DNA of 5,028 nt from Deltaproteobacteria bacterium (lineage in GTDB: Bacteria > Desulfobacterota > Desulfarculia > Adiutricales > JAGVGV01), in NCBI GenBank assembly GCA_015233515.1, contig JADFXS010000133.1, positions 1 through 5,028 on the forward strand, written 5' to 3'. The notes under the pieces were generated by a model. The model saw only the letters and a list, made by a program, of their open reading frames with translations, was not told the DNA's origin and searched no databases. Below, piece after piece: positions 1 to 5,028 of this stretch; positions within the stretch are counted from its first letter, which is position 1, and each line of letters starts with the position of its first letter. The translations under genes and the position numbers were made by a program.

Positions 1-597
1 CCTTTTTATTTCGATCAGATCATCAATGTAATATTCAGCGTCCAGAGCCGGGTTTTTATAGGCGATCAAGGAAACCCCCGCGCCCTTGGCCGCTTGCGCA
101 TCGTTTTCCGAATCGCCCACATATATGGCCTCGTGGGCGGAAACCTGAAGGCGGTCGAGAATCAGCAACACCGGTTCCGGGTCGGGCTTAGGCGTGGTTA
201 CTTCATGAATTGAGACCACCAGATCGAAATAATCCACCAGCCCGAAGTCGTTCAACACACGATTGATGGAATGCCCGCGATTGGTGCAGATCGCAATTTT
301 GTATCTGTTTTTTAGAAATTCCAGCAATTCGATCAAGTGTGGCGATGCGATCATATAAGGATTGAATTGACGATAATCGATGGAATAGCGCAAGGATTGG
401 GCCTGTTCATACAGTTCCGCGGGAATGAATCGCTTGATAGCCAGGTCCGTGGTGGCGATATGGACAAAATCTATTTCCGTTTCGGTCAAGGGCGGCAGGT
501 CTAAACCGGTGCGTAACCGGTTGAAAAAAGCCGCATTGGCCTGCCGGGAATCGAACAGGACACCATCACAGTCGAAAATGACGAGTTTATAAGGCAT
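1..597 (-). CDS. HAD-superfamily phosphatase (phosphoglycolate phosphatase-like), 3' end outside window
   Basis: The reading frame is open for 199 codons from ATG at 597 to the window edge with no stop, so the C-terminus is missing. All four HAD motifs are visible: motif I DCDGVLFDS (nucleophile D9, acid/base D11), motif II CTNRG (T105), motif III TPKPDPEP (K137) and motif IV VGDSENDAQAA (D162, D166). The helical stretch between motifs I and II (about residues 20-95) fits a C1-type cap, as in the phosphoglycolate phosphatase, PpaX and beta-phosphoglucomutase group. The expected reaction is Mg2+-dependent hydrolysis of a small phosphate ester in the cytoplasm; the substrate cannot be read from the sequence. 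The start is chosen because motif I sits at the usual distance of about 8 residues from it. No clear Shine-Dalgarno sequence precedes it. The gene follows the DUF1573 selenoprotein gene on the same strand after 156 bp with a large inverted repeat, so co-transcription is doubtful. Confidence 0.9.
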   Translation of the reverse strand, partial: MPYKLVIFDCDGVLFDSRQANAAFFNRLRTGLDLPPLTETEIDFVHIATTDLAIKRFIPAELYEQAQSLRYSIDYRQFNPYMIASPHLIELLEFLKNRYKIAICTNRGHSINRVLNDFGLVDYFDLVVSIHEVTTPKPDPEPVLLILDRLQVSAHEAIYVGDSENDAQAAKGAGVSLIAYKNPALDAEYYIDDLIEIKR

Positions 598-671: not shown

Positions 672-721
672 CCGGAACGACAAACGCCCGAACCGCATCA
701 GTGGGCGTCAGTCGTTCCCGG
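672..721 (-). terminator. Long inverted repeat, candidate terminator after the DUF1573 selenoprotein gene
   Basis: GGAACGAC at 674-681 pairs with GTCGTTCC at 711-718, and ACGCCC at 684-689 pairs with GGGCGT at 703-708. A 2x2 internal mismatch separates the two stems. Two more outer pairs (672-673 with 720-721) form if C719 bulges out. The loop is 13 nt. It lies 33 bp past the stop of the selenoprotein gene and before the HAD gene, the right place to end the upstream transcript. There is no clean U tract on either strand, only AT-rich sequence beyond, so a structured RNA or REP-like element is an alternative. The rest of the 598-753 gap shows nothing clear. Confidence 0.5.
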
Positions 722-753
722 AAATATGACTAATCTAAAATATAGCTTTCAGA

Positions 754-1356
754 TCACCCGCCTGAGCCGCTTTTGGCCGGGGCCGGTTGAGCCGGCGCCG
801 ACGGTTGATCGGTGACCTGAGGTTTTGGTGGTTGCTGGCCGGGACTGGAAGCCTGGGCTTCGACTTTACCGGACAAGGCCAGAACGAATTGCTTAACATG
901 TTCATCAGGAAGATTGGTTTTAACAAGAGCTTTTTTTAAAAAGTCCTTGCCCGCCCATTCGGGATAAATCTTGACGGACAGGGTGATTTTGCCGGCGCCG
1001 CCTGGCTGGATCCGCTGGTCAAACTTGACCAGAGAACAGCCTCAGCCCGGGGTGACGGATTCGATGACCAATTCCCCCCGACCTTTATTTTCCACCATAA
1101 AATCATGAGTAACGATGGTATCCGGTTGGACCAGGCCGAAATCAAAGGCCTGCTCGGAAATTACCAGTTCCGGCTGAGGTCCGGTGGGCGCCGGCGCGGC
1201 TGGTTGGCCGCTCGCCGGTGGAGTCGTGGTCTGAGCCGCCGGGGCGGCCGGCTTGCCGGGTTTGCCGGACGTCTGATCCCCGGCTTGGACCGGAAGAACC
1301 ATTCCCACGATCATGGCCATCAGCAAGGCGACTATTCTTATATGGCCTGAAATCAT
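754..1356 (-). CDS. DUF1573-domain exported selenoprotein (Sec encoded by in-frame TGA at 1042-1044)
   Basis: I read this as one 200-residue protein with selenocysteine at residue 105. The first 104 codons encode a signal peptide (basic start, hydrophobic core, VQA-GD cleavage after about residue 25), a Pro/Ala/Thr-rich linker (about 30-62) and the first half of a DUF1573 domain ending SVTPG. The frame then meets TGA, and after it continues GCSLVKF, QPGGAGKITLS, EWAGKDF and KKALVKTN to a C-terminal KSGSGG and a TGA stop. The adjacent paralogue (1527-2096) matches throughout and has Cys at the TGA position: TPG-U-G-C here, TPG-C-G-C there. By eye the domains are about two thirds identical, and both proteins end AKSGSGG. 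A hairpin of bacterial SECIS type follows the TGA. The ATG at 1356 is chosen because it gives the same MISG start and signal peptide as the paralogue; the in-frame ATG at 1530 would overlap the neighbour and precede the promoter. A G-rich ribosome-binding stretch lies at 1361-1366. DUF1573 is Ig-like (PF07610) with no assigned role that I know of. A recent nonsense mutation is the alternative but explains the hairpin poorly. Confidence 0.88.
1004..1044 (-). promoter_or_regulatory. Bacterial SECIS element directly after the Sec UGA codon
   Basis: Read on the minus strand, UGA (1044-1042) is followed after 9 nt by CUGGUC (1032-1027), loop AAGUUU (1026-1021) and GACCAG (1020-1015). The DNA core CTGGTCAAGTTTGACCAG is a perfect palindrome. 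A lower stem forms between GGCUG immediately after the UGA (1041-1037) and CAGCC (1008-1004), with UUCU/CGGAUC between, where U-A, C-G and U-G pairs are also possible. The apical loop contains a G and begins 16 nt after the UGA. Bacterial SECIS elements recognised by SelB have this form: inside the coding region, a small apical loop with G, roughly 16-37 nt from the UGA. The Cys paralogue has no comparable hairpin at the same site although its protein is very similar. Confidence 0.82.
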
Positions 1357-1384
1357 ATTTTCCCCCAAAAACAAAATTACTTTA

Positions 1385-1413
1385 ATCATACTCCCTGGGT
1401 TGGAGTTTAGCAA
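1385..1413 (-). promoter_or_regulatory. Sigma70-like promoter of the DUF1573 selenoprotein gene
   Basis: On the minus strand TTGCTA (-35, 1413-1408), a 17 bp spacer and TATGAT (-10, 1390-1385) lie 28 bp ahead of the ATG at 1356, giving a 5' UTR of about 22 nt. The -10 differs from consensus at one base and the spacing is ideal. The upstream paralogue has the same arrangement with an identical -10 box, so the promoter was probably copied with the gene. It implies that the selenoprotein gene can be transcribed independently of its neighbour. Confidence 0.6.
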
Positions 1414-1420
1414 GATTTTG

Positions 1421-1463
1421 GGGCGGAGCAAGCAGCGCTTGATCGTCAATGCGCCGGACGCCC
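1421..1463 (-). other. Imperfect hairpin between the two DUF1573 genes
   Basis: GGGCG at 1421-1425 can pair with CGCCC at 1459-1463. Inside it GCGCTTG at 1435-1441 pairs with CAA-GCGC at 1447-1454, with one bulged T and a 5 nt loop. It lies in the 170 bp gap after the Cys paralogue and just upstream of the selenoprotein promoter. It could be a weak terminator for the upstream gene. No U tract follows, and the middle of the structure is unpaired, so it may be chance in GC-rich sequence. Confidence 0.3.
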
Positions 1464-1526
1464 AGTTTAAATCTCCTATCATCCCGTCGCAATAAATAGC
1501 ATTTAAGGAATCGTGAAGATACTCGG

Positions 1527-2096
1527 TCATCCTCCGGATCCGCTCTTGGCTGATTCGGGTTGAGACGGCTTGGGCTCGCTGGTGGAAGAAGTTTGGCCTT
1601 CAACATTACCATTTAAGGTCAGGATGAATTGCTTCATTCGCTGTTCCGGGTCGTTGGTCTTGACCAATGCCTTTTTTACGAATTCCTTTCCTGCCCAGTC
1701 CGGAGCTATTTTAATGGACAATGAAATTTTACCTGTGCCGCCGGGTTGGATTTTGGGGTCAAAGGTGACTACCGTGCATCCACATCCTGGAGTGACGGAT
1801 TCGATAACCAATTCACCCTTGCCTTTGTTTTCCATAACAAAATCATGGGTGACTTCGGTATCCGGTTTGACATTGCCGAAATCAAAGGACATTTCGGGGA
1901 CGGCCAATTGTGGTTGCAGACCCGGGGCCGCCGGAGCGACCGGCTGAGCGGTCGCCGGCGGCGTCGGTGTTTGAGCGGTCGAGGCTGCCGGCTTGGATGC
2001 TTTTCCGGTCGATTGCTCCGCTGCTAGAACCGGAGCCGCCATTAGCGACAATATAGTGATAACTATTAATATTACGGTTTTTGTTCCAGAGATCAT
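1527..2096 (-). CDS. DUF1573-domain exported protein, Cys-containing paralogue
   Basis: This is a complete 189-residue protein. It has a signal peptide (one Lys near the start, hydrophobic core, VLA-AE cleavage after about residue 25), a Pro/Ala/Thr-rich linker (about 30-60), a DUF1573 Ig-like domain (about 62-168) and a Ser/Pro/Gly-rich tail ending AKSGSGG. Recognisable domain pieces are FDFGNVKPDT, VTHDF, ENKGKGELVIESVTPGCGC and QPGGTGKISLSIKIAPDW. The C-G-C motif, the only cysteines, is the probable active or metal-binding site. There is no lipobox, so a soluble periplasmic protein is expected. The ATG at 2096 has a strong ribosome-binding site (AGGAGG at 2106-2101, 4 nt spacing). The gene is the tandem paralogue of the selenoprotein gene downstream, with the Sec position here coded as Cys (TGT). 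Its biochemical role is not known to me; thiol redox or metal handling in the periplasm is only an inference from the motif. Confidence 0.9.
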   Translation of the reverse strand: MISGTKTVILIVITILSLMAAPVLAAEQSTGKASKPAASTAQTPTPPATAQPVAPAAPGLQPQLAVPEMSFDFGNVKPDTEVTHDFVMENKGKGELVIESVTPGCGCTVVTFDPKIQPGGTGKISLSIKIAPDWAGKEFVKKALVKTNDPEQRMKQFILTLNGNVEGQTSSTSEPKPSQPESAKSGSGG

Positions 2097-2125
2097 AAAT
2101 CCTCCTGTTGTACGATTGCGTTTTT

Positions 2126-2154
2126 ATCATACTACCGGCGATGGTGTTTCACAA
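2126..2154 (-). promoter_or_regulatory. Sigma70-like promoter of the Cys-type DUF1573 gene
   Basis: On the minus strand TTGTGA (-35, 2154-2149), a 17 bp spacer and TATGAT (-10, 2131-2126) end 30 bp before the ATG at 2096. The -10 matches consensus at five of six bases and the -35 at four of six. The 5' UTR would be about 22 nt and contains the AGGAGG ribosome-binding site. The layout closely parallels the promoter of the selenoprotein paralogue. Confidence 0.65.
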
Positions 2155-2214
2155 GATTAACTATGTTTCATTATTATTACAAATAAGTTACCTTGACTGA
2201 TTCGGTCTTTTGAC

Positions 2215-2283: not shown

Positions 2284-4095
2284 ATGCCCTTTTACCGTCT
2301 CTATTCCGGGCTCATGAAAATGCTGGTCGGGAAGAGTCCGCGTTTGGTCGGAAAAAAAAGCCGCCTGATCGTATATTGCGTTTTTGTTGGAGTTATCGCC
2401 GGACTGGGTGCGGCCGGATTCCTTTATGTCTTGTCCTGGGCCAATGTATTTTTTATGAAAATCATTGCCGGGTACGAAATTCTGGAACCCCCCGGGGAAC
2501 AGATACTTCACGTCCATTTTCAAACCAGTCCCCGGCCCTGGCTCCTGTTTCTGGTCCCGGCCATCGGCGGCCTGCTTTCCGGATTCCTCGTCTATACCTT
2601 TGCCCCCGAGGCCGAGGGTCACGGCACCGACGCCATGATCGACGCCTTCCATAACAAGGAAGGCCTCATTCGGGGCCGGGTCCCGATAGTCAAGGGACTG
2701 GCCTCGATCTTAACCCTGGCCAGCGGCGGAAGCGCCGGGCGGGAAGGACCCATCGCCCAGATCGGAGCCGGGTTCGGTTCCTGGATCGGCCAGATCCTTA
2801 AGCTGGACGTCCGGGAACGCCGCCTGCTTTTGCTGGCCGGAACGGCCGGCGGGCTGGGGGCTGTTTTTCGGGCGCCTCTGGGCGGGGCCCTGACCAGTAT
2901 CGAGGTCTTGTACAAGGAGGATTTCGAGACTGAGGGGGCCGTGACCAGCATCATCGCCGCCGTGGTGGCCTATGCGGTGTTCATTCTCATCTTCGGTTCC
3001 CGGCCGATATTCGACACTCCGGATTTCAAGTTTACCAATCCGATGGAATTGCTTTTTTATTCGGCCCTGGGCCTGATCTGTAGTCCTCTGGGTCTGATCT
3101 ACTCCAAGCTTTTTTATGGCAGCCGGGACCGCATTTTTCGGCGTCTGCCCATAAAAAAGCATTATATCCCGGCTTTGGGCGGGTTAGGGGTCGGCCTGAT
3201 CGGCCTGTTCCTGCCCCAGGTCATGGGCTCGGGCTGGGGCGTGATCCAAGAGGCCATTTGGGGGCATCTACCTTTGAGCCTGATGATCGCCGCCATATTC
3301 TTCAAGATGGTCACCACTTCGCTGACCATTAGTTCCGGAGGGTCGGGCGGGGTCTTCGGTCCGACCCTTTTCATCGGCGGGATGATCGGTGGCGTGGTCG
3401 GTCACTTAGGCCACCTTTATGCTCCGCACATCGTCACCCAACCCGCGGCTTACGTTCTGGTGGGGATGGCCGCGTTCTTTGCCGGCGTAGCCAACGCGCC
3501 TCTGGCCGCCATCCTTATGGTTTCCGAGATGAGCGGTTCCTACGGCTTGCTGGCCCCGCTGATGCTGGTTTCGGTCATTGCCATCCTCCTTTCCTCCCGC
3601 TGGTCCATTTACGAAAAACAGGTCAAGAACAAGTTTCATTCTCCGGCTCACCAGGCCGACATGACCGTGAACATCCTCGAAGAGATTAAAGTCGGCCGGA
3701 TATTTCATCCCCAGGACGATGTCGTTACACTCCCCGCCGGCATGAAGCTCAAGGAAATCAAGGAGCTCCTGACCCAGACCCGCCAGGTGTATTTCCCGGT
3801 CAAGGACTTAAAAGGCCGTTATTTCGGAATATTGAATATGCATGATATCAGAATGGTCCTTTTTGATGAGAACGTGGCTGATTTGGTAGTGGCCGGGGAG
3901 TTGGTCGGACCGATGGCTTTTGTCCGCCCCGAAGACAGCCTTTTCGCGGCCCTATCCCGTTTCACCGACACCGGCTATGGGCAGATTCCGGTGATAATGA
4001 ACTACAAGGGGCGGGATATCATTTGTGGCCTCTTAACCCACGAAGACGTCATCAAAGCCTATCAAGAAGAAGTGGCCCGACGGCGGGAAACTTGA
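2284..4095 (+). CDS. ClC-family chloride channel/transporter with C-terminal CBS domain pair
   Basis: This is a complete 603-residue inner-membrane protein. A ClC core (about 25-445) is followed by two cytoplasmic CBS domains (about 470-525 and 540-597), which in this family usually bind adenine nucleotides and modulate gating. Signature elements appear in order: GHGTD (112-116) at the place of the usual GSGIP anion-selectivity loop, GREGP (152-156) with gating glutamate E154, SIEVLY (205-210), GGVFGP (355-360), and Y443 in SIYEKQ, the likely counterpart of the central pore tyrosine. The position matching the internal proton glutamate of E. coli ClC (E203) is Val208, as in vertebrate ClC channels, so coupled Cl-/H+ exchange is uncertain. 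The ATG at 2284 has GGGAGG at 2272-2277 with 6 nt spacing. The gene diverges from the DUF1573 pair, and nhaA follows 51 bp downstream on the same strand. Possible roles are anion movement in acid, osmotic or pH homeostasis; fluoride export is less likely because the selectivity loop is not of the fluoride type that I know. Confidence 0.93.
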   Translation: MPFYRLYSGLMKMLVGKSPRLVGKKSRLIVYCVFVGVIAGLGAAGFLYVLSWANVFFMKIIAGYEILEPPGEQILHVHFQTSPRPWLLFLVPAIGGLLSGFLVYTFAPEAEGHGTDAMIDAFHNKEGLIRGRVPIVKGLASILTLASGGSAGREGPIAQIGAGFGSWIGQILKLDVRERRLLLLAGTAGGLGAVFRAPLGGALTSIEVLYKEDFETEGAVTSIIAAVVAYAVFILIFGSRPIFDTPDFKFTNPMELLFYSALGLICSPLGLIYSKLFYGSRDRIFRRLPIKKHYIPALGGLGVGLIGLFLPQVMGSGWGVIQEAIWGHLPLSLMIAAIFFKMVTTSLTISSGGSGGVFGPTLFIGGMIGGVVGHLGHLYAPHIVTQPAAYVLVGMAAFFAGVANAPLAAILMVSEMSGSYGLLAPLMLVSVIAILLSSRWSIYEKQVKNKFHSPAHQADMTVNILEEIKVGRIFHPQDDVVTLPAGMKLKEIKELLTQTRQVYFPVKDLKGRYFGILNMHDIRMVLFDENVADLVVAGELVGPMAFVRPEDSLFAALSRFTDTGYGQIPVIMNYKGRDIICGLLTHEDVIKAYQEEVARRRET

Positions 4096-4146: not shown

Positions 4147-5028
4147 ATGAAAACAAAACTGACTAAGCTTTTCATGGAATTTTTTGAAAGCGAGCAGGCT
4201 TCGGGAATTATCCTGATTCTCTGCACGGTAATTTCAGTCTCTATCGCCAATTCTTATTTCGGGAAAGGTTATTTGGAGTTTTGGCATGCCAAGCTTTGGC
4301 TTGAGATAGGTGACGCCATTTCCCTGAATTACAGTTTGGAACACTGGATTAATGACGGATTGATGGCGATTTTTTTCTGTTGATCGGCCTTGAAATTGAG
4401 AGAGAACTTTATGTCGGGGAACTGTCTGATCCGAAAAGTGCGTCGCTGCCGATAGCTGCCGCCATCGGCGGCATGATGACGCCTGCGCTGTTTCACTTTC
4501 TTCTCAACCGCGGGACTGAAACAATAAGCGGAGCCGGCATTCCCATGGCCACGGACATTGCTTTCACGATTGGAGTCCTTGCGTTGCTGGGAAACAGAGT
4601 TCCAGTGTCGCTAAAAATTTTTCTTGCCGCCTTAGCCATAATAGACGACTTAGGCGCTATTTTAGTTATTGCCCTGTTTTATATGAGTGACTTCTCGCTT
4701 TTATATCTAGTGTTAGCGTTAGGGGTATTTACAGGATTACTGATTCTAAACCGCGTCGGCTTCCTCTGGTTACCCCTTTATCTCGTTCCTGGCTTAATCA
4801 TGTGGTACTTTATCCTCAAATCAGGTGTCCACGCCACAATCACCGGTGTTCTTCTCGCCTTTGCTATTCCGTTTAGGCGCGGTGATGACGAATCGCCGTC
4901 TTACCAGTTGCAGCATTTCTTGCATAAACCGGTGGCATTTATCATTATGCCCATTTTTGCACTGGCCAATACCGGCATTGCTCTGACAGGAAACTGGATT
5001 GAAGGCTTGGCAACATCAAACAGCTTAG
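4147..5028 (+). CDS. nhaA: Na+/H+ antiporter NhaA, frameshifted at a T run and cut by the window end
   Basis: NhaA is an inner-membrane antiporter exchanging Na+ or Li+ for H+. The first frame (4147-4383) gives an NhaA N-terminus with FFESEQASGIILIL and HWINDGLMAIFF, then goes out of frame and stops at 4381. From 4377 the -1 frame continues as LLIGLEIERELYVGEL through SNSL at the window end with no stop. If one T is restored the protein reads 294 residues so far; about 90 more are expected, since E. coli NhaA has 388. Essential residues are kept: D137 in ATDIAF (E. coli D133), D167-D168 in AIIDDLGA (D163-D164) and the His in KSGVHAT (H225, a pH-sensor region). The conserved second part argues for a sequencing or assembly indel, a very recent mutation, or slippage rather than an old pseudogene. 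The start follows a weak AGG (4133-4135). The gene looks more AT-rich, with more TTA and ATA codons, than the ClC gene. Confidence 0.88.
4369..4379 (+). other. nhaA: Homopolymer frameshift site in nhaA (A-T7-CTG)
   Basis: Seven T at 4370-4376 sit between GCGA and CTG. Eight T would read Ala-Ile-Phe-Phe-Leu-Leu-Ile-Gly, matching the NhaA family consensus MAVFFLLVGLE; seven give Phe-Cys-stop. A -1 ribosomal slip on the UUU/UUC run, or RNA polymerase adding one U, would also restore the frame. Nothing seen nearby (an SD-like stimulator or a clear pseudoknot) specifically supports programmed slippage, so an indel is the simplest reading. Confidence 0.8.

Follow-up and report, generated by a model that had tools for sequence, protein, structure and literature searches.

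DUF1573 (PF07610) has figured in lists of predicted selenoprotein families since 2007-2008. The tables of two reviews (PMC9312934 and PMC13188914) carry it under PF07610 with a UGC motif and credit it to Zhang & Gladyshev 2007, and the corresponding entry in a 2008 paper (PMC2398784) names it OS_HP2, places it in pfam07610 and gives it a UxC motif and two sequences. NCBIfam also holds a model for such proteins, NF041425 (OS_HP2_seleno). Where PMC13188914 deals with uncharacterised selenoproteins, most of them are taken to be redox proteins. Among 5.39 million papers searched, the name DUF1573 turned up in three, the two reviews and one dealing with iron deficiency in Bacteroidetes (PMC10434189). 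The initial annotation of the locus described here allowed that the family may be new or little-described. The second description is a fair one, but the idea of DUF1573 as a new selenoprotein family was rejected on the listings in NCBIfam, PMC9312934, PMC13188914 and PMC2398784; the gene adds a new and fairly divergent member to a family already listed. Two other groups of proteins offer points of comparison. The UGC-containing TlpA/Prx-like selenoproteins, as far as their tabulated entries go, share the motif and probably also thiol redox chemistry, but they fall under thioredoxin-like and peroxiredoxin domains (cd02966, pfam00578), whereas the domain found here is Ig-like. HYDIN/ASH/PapD-like Ig domains have the fold in common with it, as judged by Foldseek with a predicted model, although the CGC motif that is present in the Cys-containing twin of the gene is absent from the aligned place in 2qsv and in the stretch of HYDIN shown.

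The gene lies in a window of 5,028 nucleotides, by which is meant the whole stretch of DNA that was analysed. With an internal TGA read through, the minus strand at 1356..754 encodes a predicted exported selenoprotein of 200 amino acids, referred to here as the Sec form; the initial annotation had the span right and made no mention of the strand. The frame ends in AKSGSGG and a terminal TGA stop (756..754), and among its 200 codons an internal TGA occurs once, at codon 105 (1044..1042), where it is the predicted selenocysteine of a UGC motif. Lying 170 bases upstream on the same strand is a tandem paralogue of 189 amino acids, the Cys form (2096..1527), which has TGT (1784..1782) at the aligned codon. 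The TGA falls, as had been proposed, on the first Cys of the paralogue's TPGCGC, and the Sec form reads TPG-U-GC. Both proteins pass the gathering cut-off of Pfam DUF1573 (26.1 bits), the Sec form with 52.3 bits and the Cys form with 65.5, and both stay below the 100-bit cut-off of OS_HP2_seleno, at 84.4 (with Cys for Sec) and 94.4, a cut-off that no match passes in a set of 145 genomes, TGA forms included, or in a set of five. The Sec form, with its PF07610 domain and single predicted Sec in TPG-U-GC, thus agrees with the reviews' listing of DUF1573 as a UGC protein, and it resembles OS_HP2 in Pfam family, motif, the number of Sec residues and the presence of Cys homologues at the same column; it differs in that Sec and Cys forms stand side by side in tandem and in its sub-cut-off OS_HP2_seleno score. 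Elsewhere the window holds an incomplete gene for a HAD-type hydrolase on the minus strand (597..1), a gene for a ClC-type channel with CBS domains (2284..4095) and one for an NhaA-type Na+/H+ antiporter (4147..5027), which occupies two overlapping frames and runs past the window end. A T run at 4370-4376 adjoins the frameshift that splits the antiporter gene, and this frameshift is either real or a sequencing error.

The twins are 68% identical in the DUF1573 domain and differ at codon 105 by TGA vs TGT. Unbroken similarity had been claimed for all 95 codons past the TGA; the alignment is indeed gap-free through the domain, but the Pro/Ala-rich tail contains 11 gapped positions (10 + 1). After the TGA the two genes differ at 48 of 60 synonymous sites and at 40 of 192 nonsynonymous sites (pS 0.80, pN 0.21; Fisher p 1.5e-16), and before it at 44/80 and 58/232, respectively, such that pN is similar on the two sides of the codon (0.25 before, 0.21 after; p 0.35). 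If the U branch is assumed to carry half of the overall dS, its neutral evolution past the TGA would predict a pN of about 0.49. The other two frames of the minus strand contain 7 and 9 stops. For the twin pair, this comparison of the two genes demonstrates strong purifying selection on the codons past the TGA, which have evidently been kept as protein. The result is the pattern by which a selenoprotein gene is recognised, in that an in-frame TGA stands opposite the Cys of homologues and is followed by an open frame under selection. If TGA had been reassigned throughout the genome (to Trp, Gly or Cys), codon 105 would be an ordinary one and the frame would equally continue, but this is extremely improbable, given that TGA is the terminal stop of the ClC gene and of both DUF1573 genes, that it is found internally in none of the ClC gene (604 codons), the Cys paralogue (190) and the windowed part of the HAD gene (199), and that all eight Trp codons in the four genes are TGG; TGA as an ordinary stop in the neighbouring genes gives no sign of global recoding.

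The same column was followed through other genomes. DUF1573-type matches at the thresholds set were present in 53/145, 30/386, 45/395 and 8/9 genomes of four genome sets, and 93 distinct domain segments (11,332 residues), both window copies included, were compared. The loci behind these segments were the best-ranked matches and chosen regions, with TGA-bearing ones taken first, so the share of TGA among them is not a frequency. At the column, 70 segments have Cys, 17 have TGA and 6 have something else, the last all being later repeats in their proteins that were excluded from the tree and hairpin sets. Each of the 17, the window's Sec form among them, carries exactly one TGA, always at this column, and the motif is UGC in 16 and UAC in one. 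The expected U/C exchange among homologues was thus borne out by 16 further TGA domains from 13 other genomes. The UAC case is a divergent DUF1573-like domain (L028 in genome G059), possibly a motif variant, and its genome has selB. Two TGA-form genes each are found in G150 (L106), G097 (L113) and G153 (L058, L102), in tandem in the first two and on two contigs in the third. In the sample of 395 genomes from a large phylum, TGA codons occur in a single one of the 52 matches listed, in G718. This match contains two of them and was considered as a Sec form, but neither lies within its domain, where the column is occupied by Cys, and it was not counted. In the tree, several members of this sample fall among loci labelled Bacteroidetes and Microscillaceae. 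As for close kin of the window's pair, a protein search returned the twin and distant Cys forms, a contig scan with two peptide patterns returned five distant loci, and alignment searches of further genomes found nothing close. Twin aside, no relative among 39 loci compared exceeds about 37% identity over at least 90 residues, with up to 46% over 50 residues, and the loci added afterwards, placed by the tree only, do not fall near the window.

Bacterial SECIS elements are stem-loops that adjoin the UGA on its 3' side and have, early in the apical loop, a G at 16-37 nt past the UGA. The Sec form has a hairpin of this kind starting directly 3' of its TGA (1004..1041, minus strand), with a 15-pair stem and the apical loop AGUU, the G of which is the 18th base after UGA. 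Its folding energy is -21.7 kcal/mol, with a z of -3.44 for 45 nt and -3.06 for 71 nt, and its pair probabilities run from 0.60 to 1.0, whereas the same stretch in the Cys twin gives -8.3 kcal/mol and a z of +0.65. Across the wider set the folds of the 17 TGA forms are more stable than those of the 70 Cys forms (p 0.0001 for energy, p 0.014 for z). The loop criterion that was used picks out 11 of the 17 TGA forms but also 27 of the 70 Cys forms, and a z below -1 is found in only 3/17 TGA forms, window included, so that the strong hairpin of the window is not typical of the set. Seven related TGA forms, from four genomes of one clade, share a 7-pair hairpin at the expected distance, with compensatory changes in four of the seven pairs and 5/49 cells broken; in four other TGA forms the hairpin is invariant and therefore uninformative on covariation. 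A comparison of window positions 700-2200 with the Rfam SECIS models gave no match, with E allowed to reach 10. That the window hairpin acts as a SECIS is a well-supported prediction.

The machinery for decoding UGA as selenocysteine is found along with the TGA forms. A selB gene scoring over the curated cut-off occurs in 22 of 53 DUF1573-bearing genomes, comprising 6/6 with a TGA form and 16/47 of the others (p 0.003, kinship not corrected), and also in six of seven additional TGA-form genomes; among the 13 other genomes with a TGA form the count is 12. In G153, a TGA-form genome of unstated completeness, no selB match was obtained at E 1e-60. Within the nine-genome phylum that includes G291, selB was found in 4/4 TGA-form and 0/4 Cys-only genomes (E 1e-60; completeness not stated), and the ninth genome has selB with no DUF1573 match at E 1e-9. 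In the large-phylum sample selB was found in 0/6 genomes tested (E 1e-60). The tRNA-Sec family search gives weak matches in all 53 genomes and in all 14 controls, and only matches of at least 63 bits were used; such matches are present in 6/6 TGA-form genomes of the 53-genome set.

A sequencing or assembly error that turned TGT or TGC into TGA would need only a single-base change, and the frameshift beside the T run in the nearby NhaA gene means that the contig may hold errors. Such an error is nonetheless very improbable here, as it would be unlikely both to land on the known Sec column of the family and to coincide with a hairpin of such stability (z -3.44).

The history of the pair bears on a further alternative. 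In a tree of 86 rows and 105 columns, which is mostly unresolved and from which one Cys segment was excluded as too short, the window twins form a pair (SH-aLRT 99) whose long branch separates them from every other TGA form. It follows that the Cys/Sec difference probably arose in the window's own lineage, after or around the duplication, and in either direction. Over the whole tree the U/C label requires seven changes by parsimony, at least two of which are forced by well-supported branches. The end branches are 0.39 for the Sec form and 0 for its Cys twin, and this greater change in one tandem copy is what might be seen if the TGA were a nonsense mutation in a decaying pseudogene copy of the Cys gene. 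Against such decay, selection persists past the TGA (pN 0.21; Fisher p 1.5e-16), where the 95 codons contain no second stop or frameshift; the stop would have hit the very column at which 16 other domains carry their TGA; and a strong hairpin is present in the TGA copy and absent from the Cys copy. Decay of a duplicate is thus close to refuted, and has at most a small chance of being correct.

Selenocysteine, as first proposed for this codon, is supported by the way TGA and Cys replace each other at a single column, by the selB genes of 12 of the 13 genomes, by the SECIS-like hairpin and by the post-TGA selection. The missing Rfam SECIS match and the one TGA-form genome in which no selB was found count against it. 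We put the probability at roughly 0.88 that the TGA at 1044..1042 is decoded as Sec to give a predicted exported DUF1573 protein of 200 amino acids with UGC in place of the twin's CGC, and Sec incorporation at this TGA can be called very likely. The first steps of the mechanism that we propose are seen in the sequences, which show a tandem pair distinguished by TGA vs TGT and, for this pair, codons past the TGA that are kept as protein; the hairpin, as the predicted bacterial SECIS, would then recruit SelB with Sec-tRNA-Sec.

What the protein does is less certain. Residues 1-25 of the Sec form (1282..1356, minus strand) consist of a hydrophobic stretch followed by VQA/GD; as read from the translation they are probably a signal peptide, and in the predicted model they appear as low-confidence coil. 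The folded DUF1573 domain, residues 63-167 (856..1170, minus strand), was modelled with Cys for Sec as an eight-stranded Ig-like/PapD-like sandwich with one short helix-like turn and a pLDDT mostly >90. In this model the UGC motif sits at the turn between strands 96-103 and 108-112. The best solved matches by Foldseek are PapD/ASH-like domains, such as the OCRL1 ASH domain and HYDIN 2e6j (TM 0.73 by target length), with a further match to 2qsv, a Porphyromonas protein of unknown function. An all-beta Ig-like sandwich with matches of this sort is not a thioredoxin-fold protein, and by the model the window domain stands outside the thioredoxin-fold selenoproteins. In the continuation of the proposed mechanism, the protein would be exported and its Ig-like (PapD/ASH-like) domain would present Sec and Cys as a U-x-C pair. 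Least surely, this pair may cycle between the selenol/thiol and selenenylsulfide states and so serve redox chemistry or chalcogen handling outside the cytoplasm, with electrons perhaps arriving by CcdA-type transfer, and the Cys twin may take on this work under selenium shortage. An exported Ig-like thiol/selenol redox protein is our best guess for the product of the window gene, as yet an unproven one.

One gene neighbourhood lends itself to this guess. Across the 386-genome and the nine-genome searches, the best TGA-form match to the window comes from G078. There the TGA-form gene stands in a row (L115:15762-19668) with genes for DsbD_TM (CcdA-like), an AhpC-TSA/thioredoxin-fold protein (TlpA-like being our own label), rhodanese and MauE/DoxX, with DUF1573(U) following the thioredoxin-fold protein; this row is an extracytoplasmic thiol-redox setting. 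The best-scoring ClC homologue of the 386 genomes (50%) also belongs to G078, 13.4 kb from the TGA-form gene. In the other 12 genomes, the 30 distinct neighbour ORFs of TGA-form genes that were scanned include none with thioredoxin, DsbD or rhodanese domains, and two of them are cytochrome c genes (G144, G291). Some neighbours are conserved within clades: an Amidohydro_3 gene adjoins the TGA-form genes in G097, G150, G152 and G153 (L113, L106, L107 and L114), and a DciA gene adjoins those in G291, G797 and G798 (L104, L105 and L109).

A second kind of neighbourhood involves selenium metabolism itself, for in four genomes (G797, G798, G097 and G152) a DUF1573 gene has tRNA-Sec a few kb away at most. 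The gene in G797 and in G798 is a Cys form, immediately preceded by tRNA-Sec and selB and followed by genes for a Se/S carrier-like protein (PF11823) and YedF (TIGR03527); the G797 cluster (L111:3181-8984) is followed by a cysteine desulfurase gene, and that of G798 (L112:3217-9351) has a double-cubane reductase and its activase inside. Each of these two genomes has a second selB elsewhere. In the other two genomes it is a TGA-form gene that is found close to tRNA-Sec, about 1.8 kb away in G097 (L113:3607-7894) and about 3 kb away in G152 (L119:6646-11120), with tRNA-Phe and a TRAM/tRNA_U5-meth_tr methyltransferase gene in between and, in G152, a porin-like ORF as well. No mention of a tRNA-Sec/DUF1573 neighbourhood was found in the literature searched, and a term search of the text of a 2015 survey of selenium-linked genes (PMC5322559) did not find DUF1573 named.

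These clusters, together with an Ig-like fold that in the model has no thioredoxin-type active site, would suit a Sec protein with a structural or a metal- or selenium-binding job in place of redox cycling, for instance an extracytoplasmic selenium or metal carrier. Such a role is a serious contender but an unlikely one, since the cluster with tRNA-Sec, selB, the Se/S carrier and YedF is limited to two genomes of the 36 tested for YedF near DUF1573, both from one nine-genome phylum, since in 13 other genomes the YedF match lies away from every listed DUF1573 match, and since PMC13188914, in the part cited above, favours redox proteins. With the thiol-redox row in one of 13 TGA-form genomes and YedF near DUF1573 in 2/36, both neighbourhoods are kept as leads only. 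More doubtful again is a broader picture, in which DUF1573 would be a part of bacterial selenium biology beyond the occasional selenoprotein, as an exported Ig-like selenium carrier or redox partner, with Cys forms in a core Sec cluster (tRNA-Sec, selB, DUF1573, Se/S carrier, YedF), Sec forms near tRNA-Sec, and repeated switching between Cys and Sec, including within one tandem pair.

Returning to the selenocysteine reading of the window gene, its acceptance restores to full length a gene that standard annotation would truncate at codon 105. The pair would also represent a natural set of Sec and Cys twins within one genome on a non-thioredoxin, Ig-like scaffold, and hence a clean system in which to ask what selenium adds. 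For the family as a whole, which has so far been listed as predicted, 17 TGA domains that agree on one column, together with selB in 12 of 13 genomes, provide a firmer footing, and the one thiol-redox neighbourhood and four tRNA-Sec neighbourhoods give the first leads on what role a DUF1573 selenoprotein may have.
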